A DNA stretch of 40,954 nt from Calditrichota bacterium (GTDB lineage Bacteria > Calditrichota > Calditrichia > RBG-13-44-9 > J042): NCBI GenBank assembly GCA_013150955.1, contig JAADJD010000030.1, forward strand, positions 779 through 41,732. Reading direction: 5' to 3'. The notes beneath the pieces are model-generated. The model was not told the origin of the DNA and did no database searches. It saw only the letters and a list, made by a program, of their open reading frames with translations. Positions 8,128-40,954 of the stretch are shown one piece after another. The translations under genes and the position numbers were made by a program. Numbering within the stretch: position 1 is the first letter of the stretch; each line of letters opens with the position of its first letter.

Positions 8128-8180
8128 AAATCTATCTTGTTGTGCTAATTCGGGATAAGGTAAGTATTTCAAAAACCGTT

Positions 8181-10202: not shown

Positions 10203-12296
10203 ATGACAGATAATGTAAAACAATCTCAAAAGGAGAAGGATAACGTGGCAGAATCCATGGTAGACAACGAAGCGGTGCTGGAGACAAAAATTCAGCCGGG
10301 ACAGGTCATCAAGCTGGAAGACCTGGAAAAATTAATGGAAGAGGCAGAGCCCAAAGATCCGGAGCTGCTGCAACTTTATGAAAAGAGCTTTGAAAAAATA
10401 AAAGAAGAAGACATTGTTACCGGCGTCATTCTGGAAATTTCCGACACCCACGTGGTGGTTGACGTGGGTTTCAAGAGTGAAGGCATCATCCCTCGAGAAG
10501 AATTCATAGACATTGATGATTTTAAAGTGGGCGATGAAGTGGAGCTGTTCCTGGAAGCCCCGGAAGATCCCGAGGGGAACATCATCGTTTCCCGGCGGAA
10601 GGTATATTTTATGCGTGCCTGGGAACGGCTCATGAAAAAGTATGAAAACGACGAGATCATCGAAGGGCGCATTACCCGGCGTATCAAGGGTGGATTTGTA
10701 GTGGATCTGGGTGGCGTGGACGCCTTTTTGCCCGGCTCGCAGGTGGACGTGAAACCCATCCGCGATTTTGACGCGTTTGTGGGGCAGACCCTTCAGCTGA
10801 AAATTGTGAAAGTGAACGAGCAGCGAAAGAATATTGTGGTGTCCCGCCGGGTGATCATTGAAAAGGAACTGGAAAGCAAACGGGAAGAAATTCTACGCAC
10901 CCTGGAGAAAGGTCAGGTGCGCCGTGGTGTGGTCAAGAACATTACCGACTTCGGCGTGTTCATCGATCTGGGTGGTGTGGATGGGCTGCTGCACATCACC
11001 GATCTGTCCTGGGGACGGGTCAATCATCCCAGCGAGGTGGTCAAGCTGGATCAGGAAATCGATGTGATGATCCTGGATTTCGACGAGAACAAACAGCGCA
11101 TTTCCCTGGGACTCAAGCAGCTGGAACCGCATCCCTGGGATAAGGTGGAAGAACGCTTCCCCATCGGTTCCAAGGTGAAGGGGACGGTGGTCAGCCTGAC
11201 CGATTACGGGGCATTTGTGGAGCTGGACAAGGGCATCGAAGGACTGATTCACGTGTCCGAAATGAGCTGGTCGCAGCATATCAAGAATCCCTCTCAGATC
11301 CTGAAAGTTGGTGACGAAGTGGAAGCCGTGGTGCTGAGTATTGAGCCGGAAGAACGAAAAATTTCGCTGGGACTGAAGCAACTGACGCCGGATCCCTGGG
11401 AGAACATCGAAGAGAAATATCCGGTGGGAAGCAAGCATCGCGGTATTGTGCGGAACCTGACGCCATTTGGAGCTTTTGTGGAACTGGAAGAGGGCGTGGA
11501 TGGACTGGTGCACATTTCGGATCTGTCCTGGACGAAGAAAATCCGCCATCCCAGCGAAGTGGTACGCAAGGGGCAGGAAATCGAAGTGGTCATTCTGGAT
11601 ATTAATAAAGAAGAACGCCGAATTGCCCTGGGCCACAAGCAGGTGGAACCCAATCCCTGGGATACTTTCGAGGATGCCTATAAAGTTGGGACGGAAACCA
11701 CTGGAAAGATCTCTCGCCTGATCGATAAAGGGGTGATTGTTACCCTGCCGCTGGGCGTGGATGCGTTTGTACCCCTGAATCACCTGGGTAAGCCTAACAT
11801 CAAGCGTGCGGCCGATCATTTCAAGGTTGGCGATGAATTGCCGCTGAAGGTGATCGAGTTTGACAAGGAAAACAAACGCATTGTCCTTTCGGTAACCGAA
11901 TATCTCAAAGGCAAAGAGAAGGAAGAAGTGGACGCCTATCTGGCACAGCATTCTCTGGGAGCCACCACCCTGGAGGAACTGGTGGAAACGGTGCCCGAAT
12001 TGCTGGAAGAGGAGCCCGAGAAGGGGAAGGTGAAGAAGACGGTAAAGAAGAAGAGCAAGGATCAGAAGGAGAAAGAGGACGAGGCGGAAGTGGCAGAGGA
12101 AAAGAAAGCTGAACCGGCCCGGGCGACGAAAAAGAGCAAGGCTGAGAAGGAAAAAGCGGCAGCGGATGAGAAGGCGGAGACGGCGGCGGATGCTTCTACG
12201 AAAGCGGAGACGACGGCAGAATCGGATGGTAATGCAAAAGACACTTCTGAAAAAAACGAAGAAAAAGCTGAAGAGAAGGCCAAAGAAAAGTCCTGA
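10203..12296 (+). CDS. rpsA: 30S ribosomal protein S1
   Basis: S1 binds mRNA on the small ribosomal subunit and helps initiate translation. Six S1 (OB-fold) domains can be followed: about residues 70-140, 155-225, 240-310, 325-395, 410-485 and 500-570. Repeated signatures include DFGVFIDLGGVDGLLHITD and DYGAFVELDKGIEGLIHVSE. The tail from about 580 to 697 is a low-complexity Lys/Glu/Ala stretch that is longer than in the 557-residue E. coli protein. I chose ATG 10203 (MTDNVKQ), which follows AAAGGAGG at about 10 nt. An ATG four bases earlier ends after four codons. A strong terminator follows. Confidence 0.96.
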   Translation: MTDNVKQSQKEKDNVAESMVDNEAVLETKIQPGQVIKLEDLEKLMEEAEPKDPELLQLYEKSFEKIKEEDIVTGVILEISDTHVVVDVGFKSEGIIPREEFIDIDDFKVGDEVELFLEAPEDPEGNIIVSRRKVYFMRAWERLMKKYENDEIIEGRITRRIKGGFVVDLGGVDAFLPGSQVDVKPIRDFDAFVGQTLQLKIVKVNEQRKNIVVSRRVIIEKELESKREEILRTLEKGQVRRGVVKNITDFGVFIDLGGVDGLLHITDLSWGRVNHPSEVVKLDQEIDVMILDFDENKQRISLGLKQLEPHPWDKVEERFPIGSKVKGTVVSLTDYGAFVELDKGIEGLIHVSEMSWSQHIKNPSQILKVGDEVEAVVLSIEPEERKISLGLKQLTPDPWENIEEKYPVGSKHRGIVRNLTPFGAFVELEEGVDGLVHISDLSWTKKIRHPSEVVRKGQEIEVVILDINKEERRIALGHKQVEPNPWDTFEDAYKVGTETTGKISRLIDKGVIVTLPLGVDAFVPLNHLGKPNIKRAADHFKVGDELPLKVIEFDKENKRIVLSVTEYLKGKEKEEVDAYLAQHSLGATTLEELVETVPELLEEEPEKGKVKKTVKKKSKDQKEKEDEAEVAEEKKAEPARATKKSKAEKEKAAADEKAETAADASTKAETTAESDGNAKDTSEKNEEKAEEKAKEKS

Positions 12297-22252: not shown

Positions 22253-22320
22253 GGATTGCCGTTTGCCCACCGGGTTGGCCAGGATGCAAAATCCAGCGAT
22301 TTTCCGGGAAAAATAAGCGC

Positions 22321-22410
22321 TTAACCCAAATAATGCATTCAACCGCGAATCACGCGAATGAACCCAAATTATGTTTTAAACCACGAATCACACGAATAAA
22401 CGCAAATAAA
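22321..22410 (+). repeat. Two tandem left arms of the palindromic repeat
   Basis: Left-arm sequence occurs twice in the same direction without its right half: 22321-22360 (CCCAAATAATGCATTCAACC, then CGAATCACGCGAATG) and 22361-22410 (CCCAAATTATG, then ACCACGAATCACACGAAT). The next 70 bases are not repeat-like. Confidence 0.75.
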
Positions 22411-22487
22411 AACAAACTTTTAGAAGATGATATTATTGTAGAAAAAACGTACCGGTTCTTAACCGAGTAATTTTACGTGAACCGGTT

Positions 22488-22652
22488 GATTATAATTGGA
22501 TTAAATCGCGAATGAACCGGTTGCGAATGCATAATCTGGAATTATCCACAACATCGCGAATATACCCAAAACACATTTTCATCCCGATCTGATCCAATGT
22601 ATTTGATTATTTTTATTTGTGTTCATTCGTGCAATTCGTGGTCTCCGGGTTT
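22488..22652 (+). repeat. Copy of the palindromic repeat with degraded left arm
   Basis: The centre and right arm match the family (CGAATATACCCAAAACACA, CATCCCGATCTGATCCAATG, GTTCATTCGTGCAATTCG, CCGGGTTT), but the left arm is diverged. ACCGGTT occurs nearby at about 22451, 22483 and 22517. Confidence 0.75.
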
Positions 22653-26573: not shown

Positions 26574-27545
26574 ATGGGTGCATCTAATTTTACCAATCAA
26601 GTCGATAACGTCTTTTTATTTATATTGGTCATTTCCGTGGTGCTGTTGATCGGCATTACGGCGGCCATGATTTATTTCGTCATCAAATATCGCCGATCGA
26701 AACATCCCAATCCGGTCGATATTCACGGAAACGTGCTGCTGGAAGTGGTCTGGACGGTGGTGCCCTTTTTCATTGTGATGGGCTTTTTCTATTACGGGGT
26801 GGTGGATTATCGGGAAATGCGCAACATTCCGGAAGATGCCATGGAAGTGGAAGTAATGGGGCGAATGTGGTCGTGGATGTACACTTATCCCAATGGGGTA
26901 CAGACCGACACCCTGTATGTCCCCCTGAACAAGCCCATTAAATTGAAGATTAAGTCGGTGGACGTGATTCACAGTTTTTACGTGCCGGCATTCCGGATCA
27001 AGCAGGATGCAGTACCCGGCATGGAGACCAAGATGTGGTTTAAAGCGCAGCAGGAAGGTCAATTTCAGGTGATGTGTGCCGAATACTGTGGTGATCGCCA
27101 TTCCTACATGTATTCCCAGGTACACGTGTTACCGGAAGATGAGTTTGAACGCTGGTACGCCAGTGCGGCTGCGGAGGTGGAAACCTTTGCCCAGGCCCAA
27201 GAAGGGGCCGAAGTGGATGAGGCCGCCCGGCTGGAAAAGCTCGTCAAACAGGGACAACGATTGATTAAGACCAAAGGCTGTATTGCCTGCCATACCCTGG
27301 ATGGTAGTCGCCTGGTGGGCCCCTCGTTTAAAGGCATCTGGGGCAAAACCGAAACCGTCATTGCGAATGGGGAAGAGAAGACCATTGTGGTGGACGAGGC
27401 TTACCTCCGACGCTCCATGCTGGAACCGAATGTGGAGATTGTGAAGGGCTATCCGCCGGCCATGCCGCCGCAGGGCAGCATCCTGAACGAGCAGGAGATC
27501 CAGGCGATTATTGAATTCCTGAAAACGCTGAAGGCCGAACAATGA
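26574..27545 (+). CDS. ctaC: Cytochrome c oxidase subunit II fused to cytochrome c
   Basis: Subunit II accepts electrons at a dinuclear CuA centre. This 323-residue protein has two N-terminal helices (VFLFILVISVVLL and VVPFFIVMGFFYYG) and a cupredoxin domain with ligands His133, Cys168, Cys172, His176 and Met179 (CAEYCGDRHSYM). An acidic linker (about 197-222) leads to a cytochrome c domain with CIACH (Cys236, Cys239, His240) and a likely axial Met in AMPPQG. The fusion defines caa3-type oxidases. No signal peptidase site is obvious. It overlaps ctaB (ATGA). Confidence 0.96.
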   Translation: MGASNFTNQVDNVFLFILVISVVLLIGITAAMIYFVIKYRRSKHPNPVDIHGNVLLEVVWTVVPFFIVMGFFYYGVVDYREMRNIPEDAMEVEVMGRMWSWMYTYPNGVQTDTLYVPLNKPIKLKIKSVDVIHSFYVPAFRIKQDAVPGMETKMWFKAQQEGQFQVMCAEYCGDRHSYMYSQVHVLPEDEFERWYASAAAEVETFAQAQEGAEVDEAARLEKLVKQGQRLIKTKGCIACHTLDGSRLVGPSFKGIWGKTETVIANGEEKTIVVDEAYLRRSMLEPNVEIVKGYPPAMPPQGSILNEQEIQAIIEFLKTLKAEQ

Positions 27546-28405
27546 ATCGCCCTTTGTCCGTCTTTTTAACATTGATCAAGATTCGTATTTCCGGGCTGGT
27601 GGCCCTTTCGACGGCCACCGGCTTTGTTTTGGCCACCGGTCAGTTATCCCCTGCGCTGATCACACCGGTGCTGGGCATTTTTTTGCTGGCGGCTGGTTCC
27701 GCCGCACTAAATCAGTACCAGGAACGGGAGCTGGATGCCCGCATGGAGCGTACCCGTTCCCGCCCCATTCCGTCGGGACAAATAACGCCTCAGGGGGCGC
27801 TGGCCATTTCCCTGTTGTTAATGGCAGTGGGAAGTGTGGTACTCTGGATGGGAGCCGGACACGTGGGACTGGCGCTGGGGTTGCTGAATGTGCTCTGGTA
27901 TAATGGCATTTACACCCCGTTGAAACGCATTACACCCTTTGCGGTGATTCCCGGTGCCGTCATCGGTGCCATTCCCCCGGCAGTGGGATGGATAGCCGGG
28001 GGGCGCAGTCTGCTGGAACCCCAGTTATGGGCACTGGCACTGTTTTTCTTCATCTGGCAAATTCCCCATTTCTGGTTGTTGTTGCTTAATTTTGGAAAGG
28101 ATTACGAGAAGGCGGGATTTCCTTCCCTGACGACCCGATTCAGCCCGCCGCAGCTGGCACGCATTACCTACGCCTGGATTCTGGCCACATCTCTCACCTG
28201 TCTGGCGATCCCCCTATATGGATTGGGTCATTCGTACCTGGTGTACATTGCCCTGGCCGGTAGCGCCATCTGGCTGGTGTGGAGTTCCCGGATTCTGCTA
28301 AAAGATTCCCTGAACACGCAGGTGTTTTATCTGGCCTTCCGGGAGGTGAATATTTTCATCCTGCTGATCATGATTTTCCTGACGCTGGATCGGCTGATGT
28401 TTTAA
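27542..28405 (+). CDS. ctaB: Protoheme IX farnesyltransferase (heme O synthase)
   Basis: CtaB attaches a farnesyl chain to heme B to make heme O, the precursor of heme A. The 287-residue membrane protein has eight or nine helices. The prenyl-diphosphate binding motif is NQYQERELDARMERTRSRP, fitting the family's NxxxDxxxD pattern with the TRxRP that follows. Later blocks are YTPLKRITPFAVIPGAVIG and FFFIWQIPHFWLL. It is the last gene of the operon. Heme A synthase (CtaA) is not in the window. Repeat DNA begins directly after the stop. Confidence 0.96.
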   Translation: MNRPLSVFLTLIKIRISGLVALSTATGFVLATGQLSPALITPVLGIFLLAAGSAALNQYQERELDARMERTRSRPIPSGQITPQGALAISLLLMAVGSVVLWMGAGHVGLALGLLNVLWYNGIYTPLKRITPFAVIPGAVIGAIPPAVGWIAGGRSLLEPQLWALALFFFIWQIPHFWLLLLNFGKDYEKAGFPSLTTRFSPPQLARITYAWILATSLTCLAIPLYGLGHSYLVYIALAGSAIWLVWSSRILLKDSLNTQVFYLAFREVNIFILLIMIFLTLDRLMF

Positions 28406-28513
28406 CCCGGATTTTGTGTTTGATCACGAATAACACGAATGAACACGAATAAAATTAATCCCAGATTAAGCAATCGCCTACGAATGACACGAATTCACAC
28501 CAATAAAACCAAT
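28403..28513 (-). repeat. Two partial arms of the palindromic repeat
   Basis: Two arms in the same direction: 28403-28454 (AACCCGGATTTTGTGTTTG, then CACGAATAACACGAATG) and 28455-28513 (ATCCCAGATTAAGCAATCG, then CCTACGAATGACACGAATT). The second appears to be the left arm of an outer element whose right arm is at 28685-28733. Confidence 0.8.
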
Positions 28514-28684
28514 AAACCCAAATTATGCGATAGCCTACGAATCACACGAATTAACACCAATAAAAATAATAAAATGCACTTGATTCTATCCGAATGAAAA
28601 TGTTTTCCTGGACATATTCGCTATTTTGTTGATTTTTTTCGAATTCATTCGTGTGGTTCGTGGTTTGATGCATTATTTAGGTTT
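28514..28684 (-). repeat. Full inner copy of the palindromic repeat (inverse orientation)
   Basis: From AAACCCAAATTATGCG to CATTATTTAGGTTT. Reverse-complemented, it matches the copy at 40644-40812 especially well (AAAATAGCGAATATGTCCAG, AAAACATTTTCAT). It sits between two outer arms and so appears to be inserted in another copy. Confidence 0.92.
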
Positions 28685-28733
28685 ATTGGTGTTCATTCGA
28701 GCCATTCGCGGTTTTAACGAATAATTTGGGTTT
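28685..28733 (-). repeat. Right arm of an outer, interrupted repeat
   Basis: ATTGGTGTTCATTCGAGCC, then ATTCGCGG and AATAATTTGGGTTT, is the mirror of the arm at 28455-28513. The full inner copy lies exactly between the two arms. Confidence 0.8.
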
Positions 28734-28903
28734 AACCCTGATAATGTATGAAACCGCGAATCACACGAATGAACACAAAAAATAGCAATAAAATCACGAA
28801 TAAACCTCGAAGCGAATTTTCATACAGGTCTAAACCAATGGATTTTATTGTTTTTATTTGTGTTCATTCGTGCAATTCGTGGTTTAAAGCATAATTTGGA
28901 TTT
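28734..28903 (+). repeat. Full copy of the palindromic repeat
   Basis: From AACCCTGATAATGTATG to GCATAATTTGGATTT, in direct contact with the preceding arm. It includes CCGCGAATCACACGAATG and TGTTCATTCGTGCAATTCG as inverted arms. The 218 bp from here to lpdA show no gene. Confidence 0.92.
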
Positions 28904-29121
28904 AACCTCATTGAAGTTTTGAACCATGAATCGAGCGAGTTCCCTCGTGGTGTTTACCAATTCCTAAGTCATTCATTCTCCCCTGGTTGAAAAATTAACC
29001 CAACTTTCATTTCCCCCAAAACTTTCTTAAATTAAACATTCATTGAACTTGCACGATGGTGATTCCCTAAGTGGGTAAGGCATTTAAGTTCAAAAACCAT
29101 CAAAGCGATTGGAGATAAGAT

Positions 29122-30510
29122 ATGGATTACGATGTTCTGGTCATAGGTTCCGGGCCGGGTGGATACGTGGCCGCCATTCGTGGAGCGCAACTGGGAATGA
29201 AAGTGGGGATTGTGGAGCGAGCCGATCTGGGAGGCATTTGTTTAAATTGGGGCTGCATTCCCACCAAAGCCTTATTACGCAGTGCCGAAGTTTTGCATCT
29301 CATTCAAACATCTTCCGATTTTGGCATCCAGGTAGCCGATGTTCAGATAGATTTTTCCAGGGTCATCAAACGCAGCCGCAATGTAGCCAATCGTTTGTCC
29401 AAGGGTGTGGCCTTTTTGATGCGCAAAAATAAAATCGATACGTTGTTTGGCACCGGCCGCCTGGTGGATGCCAATACCGTCGAGGTTACCGACGCCGATG
29501 GCAAGACCACTCGCCACCAGGCCAAATTCATTTTGATAGCTACCGGTGCCCGTGCCCGCCAGATTTCCGGACTGGAGGCCGACGGCAAACGGGTGTTGAA
29601 TTACAAGCATGCCCTGGCGCTGGATAAATTGCCAGCATCCATTGTGGTGGTGGGAGCAGGGGCCATTGGGGTGGAGTTTGCCTACTTTTACCGCACCTTT
29701 GGTGCAGAGGTGACCCTGGTAGAGATGATGCCCCAGCTTCTTCCCGTGGAAGACGAGGAAGTGGCCAGGGAGCTGGAAAAGGCGTTTAAAAAACAGGGCA
29801 TTCAGGTTTATACCGGGACGAAGGTGGAAAAATTAAGCAAAACGAAAAAAGGTGTGAAATTAACCGTGAGCCGGGATGGAAAAGAGGAAACGCTTTCTGC
29901 GGAGTATGCCCTGATTGCTATTGGTGTGCAGGCCAATATTGAGGATATTGGCCTGGAAACCGTTGGGGTGGCAGTGGAAAAAGGCTGGATAAAAGTCAAT
30001 TCGTTTTATCAGACCAGCGTGCCCAATATTTATGCCATCGGCGATGTGATTGGTGCTCCCTGGCTGGCGCATGTGGCCTCCAAAGAAGGAATCCTGGCCA
30101 TGGAGCATATGGCCGGAAAGGAAGTGATTCCCCTGGATTACAGGAATATTCCAGGTTGTACCTATTGCCAGCCCCAGGTGGCCTCGGTGGGAATGACCGA
30201 AAAGCAGGCCCGCGAGGCAGGGTACGACATCAAGGTTGGGAAATTCCCGCTGCGAGCCAACGGGAAAGCCCTGGCCCTGGGGGAAAGCGAAGGGTTCATC
30301 AAAATTATTTACGATGCCCGCTACGGCGAATTGCTGGGTTGCCACATCATCGGGCCAGAAGCCACCGAACTGATCACCGAAGTGACCCTGGCAAAGGCAG
30401 TAGAATCCACCTATCTGGAAGTGTTGCACACGGTGCATCCGCATCCCACGTTGAGTGAGATTGTGGCCGAAGCCACCCATGTGGCCATCGGGGAACCCAT
30501 TCATATTTAA
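29122..30510 (+). CDS. lpdA: Dihydrolipoyl dehydrogenase (E3)
   Basis: E3 re-oxidises dihydrolipoyl groups on 2-oxoacid dehydrogenases or the glycine cleavage H protein, passing electrons to NAD+ through FAD. The 462-residue protein has the FAD-binding GSGPGGYVAA (9-18) and the redox disulfide GGICLNWGCIPTK (Cys40, Cys45). The NAD-binding loop is VVGAGAIGVEFA, and AIGDV binds the FAD. The C-terminal catalytic base is in HPHPTLSE (His441, Glu446). GGAG precedes the ATG. The lipB, E2 and lipA genes follow on the same strand. Confidence 0.97.
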   Translation: MDYDVLVIGSGPGGYVAAIRGAQLGMKVGIVERADLGGICLNWGCIPTKALLRSAEVLHLIQTSSDFGIQVADVQIDFSRVIKRSRNVANRLSKGVAFLMRKNKIDTLFGTGRLVDANTVEVTDADGKTTRHQAKFILIATGARARQISGLEADGKRVLNYKHALALDKLPASIVVVGAGAIGVEFAYFYRTFGAEVTLVEMMPQLLPVEDEEVARELEKAFKKQGIQVYTGTKVEKLSKTKKGVKLTVSRDGKEETLSAEYALIAIGVQANIEDIGLETVGVAVEKGWIKVNSFYQTSVPNIYAIGDVIGAPWLAHVASKEGILAMEHMAGKEVIPLDYRNIPGCTYCQPQVASVGMTEKQAREAGYDIKVGKFPLRANGKALALGESEGFIKIIYDARYGELLGCHIIGPEATELITEVTLAKAVESTYLEVLHTVHPHPTLSEIVAEATHVAIGEPIHI

Positions 30511-31414: not shown

Positions 31415-33091
31415 ATGAAAGTGGATGTGTTAATGCCCCAGCTGGGTGAAAGTGTGACCGAAGGGACGATCGTAAAGTGGTGGAAGAAACCCGGCGATTT
31501 TGTAAAGAAGGACGAGACATTACTGGAAATTTCTACCGATAAAGTCGACACCGAAATTCCCAGTCCCTTTGAGGGGACTCTGGTGGAAATACTGGCGAAG
31601 GAAAACGAAACCGTGGAAGTGGGGCGCGTGATTGCGCGCATTGAAACGGAAGCGGCAGAAGCCGAAACGGCACCTGTTTCGCCGCCGGAGCCCGAGCCCG
31701 AGAAGAAGGAAGCGCCTCCGGCGGAGCCCGCACCCCCTGCTCCCCCAACCGCGGAACCCAAACCGGCAACAGGGGGACAGGTGGTGGATATTTTGATGCC
31801 CCGACTGGGAGAAAGCGTAACCGAAGGTACCATCGTAAAATGGTGGAAAAAACCGGGTGATTTTGTGAAAAAGGATGAAACGCTGCTGGAAATTTCCACG
31901 GACAAGGTGGACACCGAGATCCCCAGTCCCTACGAAGGCGTGCTGAAAGAAATCCTGGTTTCTGAAAACGAAACCGTGGCCGTGGATGCCGTGATTGCCC
32001 GCATGGAATTGGGTGCCGGTGGAGCAGTGGAAGCCCCGGCAGCTCCGCAAACAGAAGCGGTAGCTACTGCAGCGCAGGCACCACCTCCATCCGCACCGGC
32101 AGCAGAACCCCCACCGGCTCGGGAAGGAAAACGAGGACGGTTTTACTCGCCCCTGGTGCTCAGCATTGCGCGCAAAGAAGGCATTTCCATGGAGGAACTG
32201 GAGCGCATTCCCGGTACCGGTCTTGGCGGTCGGGTGACCAAAAAAGACATCCTCAAATATATTGAAGAAAAGAAGGCCGCGGTGGCCCCACCGGTAACGC
32301 GGCCAGCGGCTGCACCCCCACCGCCATCTACACCGCCAGCGGCAGCGGCTCCGGCACCGGAGGATCTAACCCGGAAATACGCCGGCAAACGGGTGGAAAT
32401 TATCCCCATGGATGCCATCCGGAAGAAGATTGCCGAACATATGGTCAAAAGCAAGGCCACCTCGCCGCATGTCTATTCGGTCTCCGAATGCGACTTTACC
32501 AACGTACTGGAAATTGTGCGTAAGCATCGTCCCCGCTGGGAACGCGAGGAAGGATTCAAACTCACCATCAATCCCTTCATCCTGTATGCGGTGACCAAGG
32601 CATTGCAGGATTTTCCCCGCATGAACAGCTCCGTTGAAGGAGAAAATATCGTGGTCAAGAAATACATTAATCTGGGGATGGCCGTGGCCACCGATCGCGG
32701 TCTGATTGTGCCGGTACTCAAGAATGCGGAAGAGAAGAGCTTTCGGGGCATCGCCCGTGGCGCATACGACCTGGCTATTCGGGCTCGCGATAAAAAGTTA
32801 ACCCTGGACGATGTCCAGGATTCCACCTTCTCGGTAACCAATTATGGTGTTTTTGGCAACATTTTTGGATTGCCGATCATTAATCAACCCAACGTGGGGA
32901 TTATTGGTGTGGGAGCGGTCAAGAAACGGCCTGTCGTTGTGGAAACGCCCCAGGGAGATGCCATCGTCATTCGTTCCATTGGTTTCCTGACGTTAACTTA
33001 CGATCATCGTATCATCGATGGCGATTATGGCGGACAATTCTTGCAACGGGTGGTTCACTATCTGGAAACGGTTACCGAGGATGTGTTGTAA
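31415..33091 (+). CDS. 2-oxoacid dehydrogenase E2 with two lipoyl domains
   Basis: This dihydrolipoamide acyltransferase forms the core of a 2-oxoacid dehydrogenase complex. The 558-residue protein has, in order, lipoyl domain 1 (1-77; modified Lys43 in STDKVDTE), a Pro/Ala/Glu linker, lipoyl domain 2 (124-198; Lys164), a second linker, the E1/E3-binding domain (about 244-285; GTGLGGRVTKKDIL), a third Ala/Pro linker, and the catalytic domain (about 325-558) with YDHRIIDGD (His531, Asp535). The substrate (pyruvate, 2-oxoglutarate or branched-chain acid) cannot be decided, because no E1 gene is in the window. GGGGAG precedes the ATG. Confidence 0.95.
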   Translation: MKVDVLMPQLGESVTEGTIVKWWKKPGDFVKKDETLLEISTDKVDTEIPSPFEGTLVEILAKENETVEVGRVIARIETEAAEAETAPVSPPEPEPEKKEAPPAEPAPPAPPTAEPKPATGGQVVDILMPRLGESVTEGTIVKWWKKPGDFVKKDETLLEISTDKVDTEIPSPYEGVLKEILVSENETVAVDAVIARMELGAGGAVEAPAAPQTEAVATAAQAPPPSAPAAEPPPAREGKRGRFYSPLVLSIARKEGISMEELERIPGTGLGGRVTKKDILKYIEEKKAAVAPPVTRPAAAPPPPSTPPAAAAPAPEDLTRKYAGKRVEIIPMDAIRKKIAEHMVKSKATSPHVYSVSECDFTNVLEIVRKHRPRWEREEGFKLTINPFILYAVTKALQDFPRMNSSVEGENIVVKKYINLGMAVATDRGLIVPVLKNAEEKSFRGIARGAYDLAIRARDKKLTLDDVQDSTFSVTNYGVFGNIFGLPIINQPNVGIIGVGAVKKRPVVVETPQGDAIVIRSIGFLTLTYDHRIIDGDYGGQFLQRVVHYLETVTEDVL

Positions 33092-38716: not shown

Positions 38717-38884
38717 AAACCCAAATTATGCAATAAATCGCGAATCACACGAATGAAACCAAAAATATCCATAAATTCGCAAATAAACTCTGAAACAAAT
38801 TTTTATCCAGATTTTACTCAATGTATTTTATTATTTTTTTTGTGTTAATTCGTGTCATTCGTAGGCTATTGCTTAATCTGGGAT
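38717..38884 (+). repeat. Full copy of the palindromic repeat overlapping a gene's 3' end
   Basis: From AAACCCAAATTATGCA to GCTTAATCTGGGAT, with TCGCGAATCACACGAATG and TTAATTCGTGTCATTCGTAG as inverted arms. Its right end contains the stop codon of the minus-strand GxxExxY gene. Confidence 0.92.
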
Positions 38885-39283
38885 AAAAACAAAGCGTTCA
38901 TATTCCAAACCAGGATAATGACCAAAATTAACTAATAATCCCAATTGGAAGTGAGATGCGCTTAAGTAATTAATGATTTGCGCTCTGAATTCATCGATTA
39001 AATTCGGTACAGCCTTTATTTCTAAGATGATTTTATCATAACAAATAAAGTCTGGCTTGAATCCCTGTTTTAGAGGAACCCCTTTGTAATTTAATTTCAT
39101 CTCCTGCTGTTCAACGAAGGGAATCTTTCTTAGTTTGAACTCTATTGCCAGGCTTTCCTGATAGACGGCTTCTAAAAAGCCACATCCAAGTGCATTGTAC
39201 ACTTCATAGCAAGCTCCAATAATATTGTAACTTTCCTTCGGATATATGATTTCTTTGTTCGTTTGAGCAATTTTTTTATTCAA
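38873..39283 (-). CDS. GxxExxY protein, PD-(D/E)XK nuclease fold
   Basis: A 136-residue protein with the family signature GFLEAVY (Gly35, Glu38, Tyr41). A restriction-nuclease-like core follows: KPDFI (Asp78) and LEIKA (Glu88, Lys90), then AQIINYL (Gln102), matching a D...ExK pattern. Members are small and often dispersed, with no established function. The start is TTG at 39283 with AGGA 6 nt upstream; no ATG is near. The last codons (IPD and stop) lie in the end of the repeat at 38717-38884. Local DNA is more AT-rich than in neighbouring genes, which suggests transfer. Confidence 0.88.
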   Translation of the reverse strand: MNKKIAQTNKEIIYPKESYNIIGACYEVYNALGCGFLEAVYQESLAIEFKLRKIPFVEQQEMKLNYKGVPLKQGFKPDFICYDKIILEIKAVPNLIDEFRAQIINYLSASHFQLGLLVNFGHYPGLEYERFVFIPD

Positions 39284-40643: not shown

Positions 40644-40812
40644 AAACCTAAATAATGCGTTAAACCACGAATCACGCGAATGAATTCGAATAATGTCAAC
40701 AAAATAGCGAATATATCCAGCAAAACATTTTCATCAGATAGAATCCAGTGCATTTGATTATTTTTGTTGGTGTTCATTCGTGTAATTCGTAGGCTATTGA
40801 ATAATTTGGGAT
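40644..40812 (+). repeat. Full copy of the palindromic repeat abutting a transposase remnant
   Basis: From AAACCTAAATAATGCG to GAATAATTTGGGAT, with ACCACGAATCACGCGAATG and TGTTCATTCGTGTAATTCG as inverted arms. It is upstream of cfa (111 bp from its start) and its right end touches the transposase fragment. Confidence 0.92.
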
Positions 40813-40954
40813 AAAGGATCCGACAAGAAATTCAACTATCATCTACTTGTCGAATCCTACCGCACCCCCAACGGTCCCCGGCAACGCACGCTTTTGTCTT
40901 TAGGCCAACTCTCCCTGCCCCGACAACAGTGGAAGGCACTGGCCAACCGCATCG
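40801..40954 (+). pseudogene. IS1634-like transposase, 5'-truncated and cut by the window end
   Basis: One frame is open from 40801 to the window end and encodes YHLLVESYRTPNG, then PRQRTLLSLG, then LPRQQWKALANRI. This is typical of the N-terminus of IS1634-type (IS4 superfamily) transposases (VESxR...RQRTLLxLG...P..W..LA.RI). It has no ATG or GTG and no early TTG: the frame is closed by TGA at 40798-40800 inside the repeat. The expected first 10 or so residues are therefore missing or replaced by repeat sequence. Whether the rest of the gene is intact lies outside the window. Confidence 0.6.

Follow-up and report, generated by a model that had tools for sequence, protein, structure and literature searches.

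The ctaB–lpd locus

Downstream of ctaB, the window (the whole stretch of DNA analysed, 40,954 nt) carries a pile-up of repeat copies, in which a full inverse copy lies between two arms that face each other. The question raised by this locus is how such an array arises, and whether its concentric arrangement records serial insertion into the loops of existing copies, as the original prediction held. The ctaB gene (27542-28405) encodes a UbiA family protein whose top NCBIfam match is heme o synthase, with a score below the cut-off of that model. The lipoamide dehydrogenase gene lpd (29122-30510) follows after a spacing of 716 nt, and the array lies in between. Its ends were refined with a copy profile made from 30 copies, an arm profile, and the 5-bp target rule described below. 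The inner inverse copy, the flanking arms, the further left arm and the right forward copy that had been named from the letters are all present by profile, with ends refined. From left to right the parts are:

28401..28405, no strand: 5-mer TTTAA, the left array edge, holding the ctaB stop TAA (28403-28405)
28406..28454, minus: lone left arm 1, B type; arm profile E = 1.4e-8; 79.6% identity to the subfamily III B arm
28455..28459, no strand: 5-mer TTAAT between arm 1 and arm 2
28460..28511, minus: lone left arm 2, B type; E = 7.1e-10; 89.5% to the subfamily I/II B arms over 28460-28516
28512..28516, no strand: 5-mer ATAAA, left flank of the inner copy; fits WTWAW
28517..28681, minus: inner full MITE copy, subfamily I; 174.6 bits, E = 8e-52; 7.9% from consensus
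28682..28686, no strand: 5-mer TTTAT, right flank of the inner copy; fits WTWAW and differs from the left 5-mer
28682..28730, plus: lone right arm 3; E = 2e-9; A/B typing tied, 25.0 vs 25.0; its first five bases are the TTTAT
28731..28735, no strand: 5-mer TTTAA, common to arm 3 and the forward copy
28736..28899, plus: full forward MITE copy, subfamily III; 97.4 bits, E = 4e-28; 12.7% from consensus; TTTAA on both sides
28900..28904, no strand: 5-mer TTTAA, right duplicate of the forward copy
28905..28945, minus: candidate arm, heavily decayed; repeat comparison gives 58-64% identity to the arm consensi

The last of these has no match in the profile search with the arm profile. Arm 1 begins directly after the ctaB stop, the stop being inside TTTAA, and the C-terminal end of the ctaB product is MF* where the ortholog in the sister genome (G001) has MFVK*. 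As RNA, the array is computed to fold strongly, at -169.8 kcal/mol with z = -9.7, and Rfam at gathering score gives 0 matches for the window. Contigs C64 and C29 carry arrays of the same architecture.

The repeat is a MITE with a 5-bp target

The consensus of the repeat is 165 nt long with CCC...GGG ends and a middle of about 60 nt, and its two inverted arms are similar to each other yet distinguishable, A reading CCCAAATAATGC... and B reading CCCAGATTATGC... The initial search gave at least 98 matches, with the best 40 of 710 candidates scored. The census that followed took in 740 kb of sequence on four contigs, as well as the window and three smaller pieces, and contains 109 full copies (94 of them within the 740 kb) and 380 arms at E < 0.01 (320 within the 740 kb). 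As a control, the arm profile has 1 match at E < 1 in the reversed sample versus 403 in the real sequence. Copies cover 24,863 of the 740,000 bases and 22,872 of the approximately 86,000 non-coding bases, a share of about 27% that rests on coding calls made as a simple greedy set of open frames. From the comparison of mismatched flanking 5-mers onward, copies under 60 bits (1 of the 109) were left out; the subfamily alignment used a length filter of 155-180 nt, and a clustering distance of 0.20 was chosen, 0.25 having merged nearly all copies.

Of the 109 copies, 42 have identical 5-mers on both sides, where shuffled pairs give 8.6%; a 6-bp duplication occurs in 0 of 109. The target is WTWAW: position -4 is T in 102 of the 109 copies, and position -2 is A in 100; the AAT/ATT beside the inner ctaB copy, where a target preference had been suspected, turns out to be part of ATAAA/TTTAT and to reflect this motif. 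One guest copy (L030) has ATTAT twice, and the matching empty site, with ATTAT once, is in the window at 22424-22446. The repeat is short, has terminal inverted repeats, carries no transposase gene and no proposed coding frame, and has its ends in common with an autonomous-type element of the same genome, an IS of the IS1380 family. It is a MITE with 5-bp WTWAW target duplications.

The flanking 5-mers differ at 2 or more positions in 44 of 108 copies, and in 15 of these both are still WTWAW. The data favour neither mere mutation nor rearrangement as the source of the mismatches. A reverse-complement relation is found in 4 of the 44 versus 3.4 expected, so that there is no overall enrichment and reverse-complement flanks by themselves are not special.

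Some other repeats of the window are recorded here. A second complex array at 22314-22645 has two left arms 38 nt apart (22325, 22363) and a truncated copy, and in between a different palindromic repeat at about 22440-22490 that also flanks copy L030. Diverged direct repeats lie inside open frames at 11025-11664 (three of 118 nt, 261 nt apart) and at 31421-32025 (two of 242 nt, 363 nt apart).

An IS1380 element as the likely transposase source

The genome has a single IS1380-family transposase gene, at the start of contig C18, matching NF033539 with 219.4 bits (cut-off 180) and PF13701 with 138.3 bits. The IS itself is multicopy and breaks contigs: in the only sizeable copy the transposase is in two overlapping frames and cut by the contig start, and the others are broken at contig ends. 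Five left ends read CCCAGATTACGCATTAG, with outer 5-mers ATTAT, TTTAA, TTAAA, TTAAA and TTAAA, and four right ends read ...CTATTGCGTAATCTGGG, followed by TTAAA in three and AATCT in one. Taken together, the ends CCCAGATTACGCATTAG and CCCAGATTACGCAATAG adjoin WTWAW 5-mers at 8 of 9 junctions, and of the first 17 bases of the IS, 16 match the MITE B end CCCAGATTATGCATTAG. Because near-identical ends and the same target occur in the same genome, the predicted IS1380 transposase most likely moved the MITE copies in trans.

IS1380 copies also occur inside or directly beside MITE copies (L079, L085). At the contig end, window 40811-40954, there is a candidate transposase start noted by eye (…LVESYRTPNGPRQRTLLSLG…), and in front of it a MITE copy at 40647-40810 with ATAAA on both sides. 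A GxxExxY gene (window 38873-39283, minus strand; TIGR04256, 136.5 bits) has its end inside the MITE copy at 38720-38882. It was considered as an element-borne partner gene and rejected: the genome has no second TIGR04256 match, so this gene cannot be a common MITE partner.

Nesting across the genome

When a guest and one 5-mer are removed, a host is restored across the junction for 22 of the 109 full copies, with an exact duplication in 12. Fourteen nests have both host arms located, and in 14 of 14 these are one A and one B arm; the restored host measures 160-167 nt in 10, and 121, 133, 136 and 181 nt in the remaining four. Among neighbouring ends within 200 nt, two left ends follow one another 50 times and two right ends 57 times, as against 10 cases of a right end followed by a left end, so copies are nested much more often than they are merely adjacent. 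Nesting is real and common in this genome, so the proposal of serial insertion into existing copies stands genome-wide; where it does not carry over is to the ctaB array as a simple nest, as discussed below.

Of the 30 full copies that count as young (at least 140 bits), 8 lie in a spanning host, 7 are bordered by old element on both sides, and 13 on one side. Special self-homing is not needed, since 36.6% of the non-coding WTWAW sites are already within older copies. There is a preference for the inner B-arm edge, the junction falling at positions 100-129 in 9 of the 21 cases with a spanning host and in 19 of the 33 one-sided ones. For the one-sided pile-ups, a first look found the outer duplication in 3 of 21 and 4 of 18; under strict counting it is exact in 3 of 16 versus 1.3 expected (P = 0.12), and the idea that these pile-ups keep the outer duplication of the host after host-guest recombination is not supported.

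The ctaB array is probably no simple nest

At ctaB, the inner copy has both ends intact and WTWAW 5-mers on both sides, but the 5-mers are ATAAA on the left and TTTAT on the right and the target duplication is absent. The original prediction took the flanking arms for two arms of one other element, and reckoned that outer arms not joinable into one normal copy would speak against it. The arms at 28460 and 28730 leave 101 nt of host with the loop missing, versus 165 nt for a normal copy, and cannot be so joined, nor do they restore one full host with one duplication. Free loop-less copies were also sought as hosts, and among 126 pairs of left and right ends 0 lie at 80-140 nt. On the unequal flanks, the 101-nt host without a middle, and this lack of free loop-less copies, the array is probably no simple nest.

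Simple serial insertion, in which a single outer copy took the inner one into its loop and later lost that loop through decay or an unrelated deletion, draws on the frequency of simple loop insertions (the 22 restored hosts above), on the way the arms at 28460 and 28730 face each other, and on layer ages that fit. It needs an ATAAA duplicate where the right flank has TTTAT, however, and the missing DNA ends exactly at the end of the inner copy, as a chance deletion would not; the outer 5-mers, TTAAT and TTTAA, are also unequal, and the restored host is too short at 101 nt. We regard it as unlikely. If the element also existed as a short hairpin version with no loop, entry of the inner copy at its centre would account for the flanks CCAATAAA and TTTATTGG, which are perfect inverted repeats as at a hairpin centre, but insertion there should still give a 5-bp duplication, and the empty 80-140 nt class of end pairs offers no such version; this is the least probable of the readings weighed. 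An artefact of short-read assembly, by collapsed or chimeric copies, comes to mind with a genome in 66 contigs and an IS that breaks contigs. Against it, the copies differ by several percent, the array has unique sequence on either side within a contig of 41.7 kb, and other contigs hold similar arrays, leaving an artefact very improbable.

Those other arrays bear on the number of hosts. In all, 7 copies have arms on both sides without a restorable host, and by arm type they are B+B in 4 (C3 piece at 8166, C64:132373, C29:95713, where the call is weak at 17 vs 19, and C29:143833), A+B in 2 (C23:150589, C29:127551), and undecided in 1, the ctaB array. The typing was right for 215 of 216 known arms. 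B+B arms are thus found in 4 of 7 such arrays versus 0 of 14 true nests (Fisher p = 0.006), or in 4 of 6 when ctaB is excluded. Since one host carries one arm of each type, B+B arrays join two hosts, and most of the loop-less arrays elsewhere cannot derive from a single host copy. The 2 of 7 that are A+B count against a two-host origin as a general rule, and because the A/B type of arm 3 is tied, the order B, copy, B' is unproven at ctaB itself.

Order of the layers

The divergence of each layer, a check that had been suggested at the outset, gives values in keeping with an order. The inner copy belongs to subfamily I at 7.9% from consensus (subfamily median 7.0%), the forward copy to subfamily III at 12.7% (median 10.3%), and the arms are at about 20% for arm 1, 10.5% for arm 2, and 15% for arm 3, placing the left arms at 10-20%. 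The inner copy is plausibly the youngest layer, with the reservation that short arms date poorly. A relative order of events can thus be kept in so far as it follows from subfamily and divergence; geometry alone does not provide it. The 5-mers at 28401-28405 and 28731-28735 are both TTTAA, which also fits a single outermost element at 28406-28730 (chance about 9%), and the paired TTTAA of the forward copy is as expected had that copy itself inserted into the duplicate of that outermost element, or beside it.

Proposed origin

The reading we prefer, with a probability of about 0.68, is serial insertion followed by an element-bounded deletion that fused two hosts through one copy. Counting against it are the tied type of arm 3, the two A+B arrays, the TTTAA match that would suit a single outermost element, the weak result for the outer duplication in one-sided pile-ups, the lack of enrichment of reverse-complement 5-mers, and the split, truncated transposase gene in the only sizeable IS copy. 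MITE copies, most likely moved in trans by the IS1380 transposase, insert into and duplicate 5-bp WTWAW sites. Older copies, AT-rich and sited in non-coding DNA, are good targets, above all at the B arm inner edge (ATAAA/TTTAT), and later copies thereby land in earlier ones. Near ctaB, we infer that one older copy received a subfamily I copy at the edge of its B arm and that another insertion took place at a TTTAT site in the arm of a second host. An element-bounded deletion would then have removed both host loops plus the intervening DNA, leaving arm, copy and arm with unmatched 5-mers as the end product. Its exact bounds, a copy end and a WTWAW site, point to the elements themselves; as to the route, either recombination between two guests or an adjacent deletion made by the transposase would fit the data.

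More tentatively, and with a good deal of doubt, the transposase itself might regularly generate the loop-less B, copy, B' arrays, when one end of a nested copy attacks a second WTWAW site and the host loops are deleted. That second site would be the opposite arm edge or an extruded hairpin stem, in which ATAAA pairs with TTTAT. If so, MITE pile-ups would be pruned by the transposition machinery and not by host recombination.

Distribution in related genomes

In the sister genome G001, the ctaB–lpd interval has 112 nt between alignments versus 585 here and holds no element. Genome-wide, G001 has 2 weak element matches, and the IS1380 family has no match in G001 or in two family members. A single 307-nt relative (L167, G001:C15:2441-2747) has B and A arms and ATAAT on both sides around an unrelated middle. 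With no array in G001 and only this relative, the MITE copies thus multiplied in the lineage of the present genome. Other ctaB relatives include many Calditrichota, so the host probably belongs near that phylum. The sub-terminal motif CCACGAATTACACGAATTAACAC was seen in several distant genomes of the phylum that have no full element (L178-L183), with matches in 7 of 40 genomes, the present one and G001 included, and could represent a more widespread repeat or a binding motif.

Relation to known elements

Bacterial MITEs such as Correia elements, ERIC, Chunjie and QMITEs are reviewed in PMC10969869, and the array repeat resembles them in being short and non-coding, with terminal inverted repeats, a target duplication, many mostly intergenic copies, and ends like those of a resident IS. 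It departs from those reviewed there in its 5-bp WTWAW duplication, dense self-nesting and fused arrays, and in its likely partner family, as the name IS1380 was not found in the accessible part (PMC10969869). For ISEcp1, 5-bp direct repeats and an AT-rich target are described in PMC7527135; the 5-bp duplication and AT-rich target of the MITE are alike, and the transposase of the resident IS is of the same family, above the NF033539 cut-off. The array repeats differ from IS1380 elements in having no transposase and only about 17 terminal bases in common with the resident IS. ISEcp1 is a member of the IS1380 family.

The pneumococcal BOX, RUP and SPRITE repeats form clusters inserted into one another, according to PMC3049150, and the ctaB-type clusters of mutually inserted repeats are similar in this; the sequences are unrelated, and in the present genome guest and host belong to the same family, the order of whose subfamilies can be measured. 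The Tn3-derived TIMEs (PMC4133298) are likewise non-autonomous, with AT-rich 5-bp duplications and composite forms. They have 38-bp Tn3-type repeats and use the Tn3 transposase, whereas the CCC...GGG ends here match IS1380, a separation made by description. No IS1380-linked MITE nest was found in the available portions of the open-licence literature on MITEs, nesting, IS1380 and ISEcp1 (including PMC3852290), and no paper joining Calditrichota and a transposable element was found in the open-licence literature.

Implications

For the reading of such loci, the ctaB array is a warning against taking concentric arms as proof that a single host copy was entered. For this genome, one MITE family makes up about 27% of the sampled non-coding DNA, and since its layers can be dated, its partner is probably the IS1380 element and its target is clear, both the order of insertions and the loss of DNA by element-bounded deletion are readable from the sequence.
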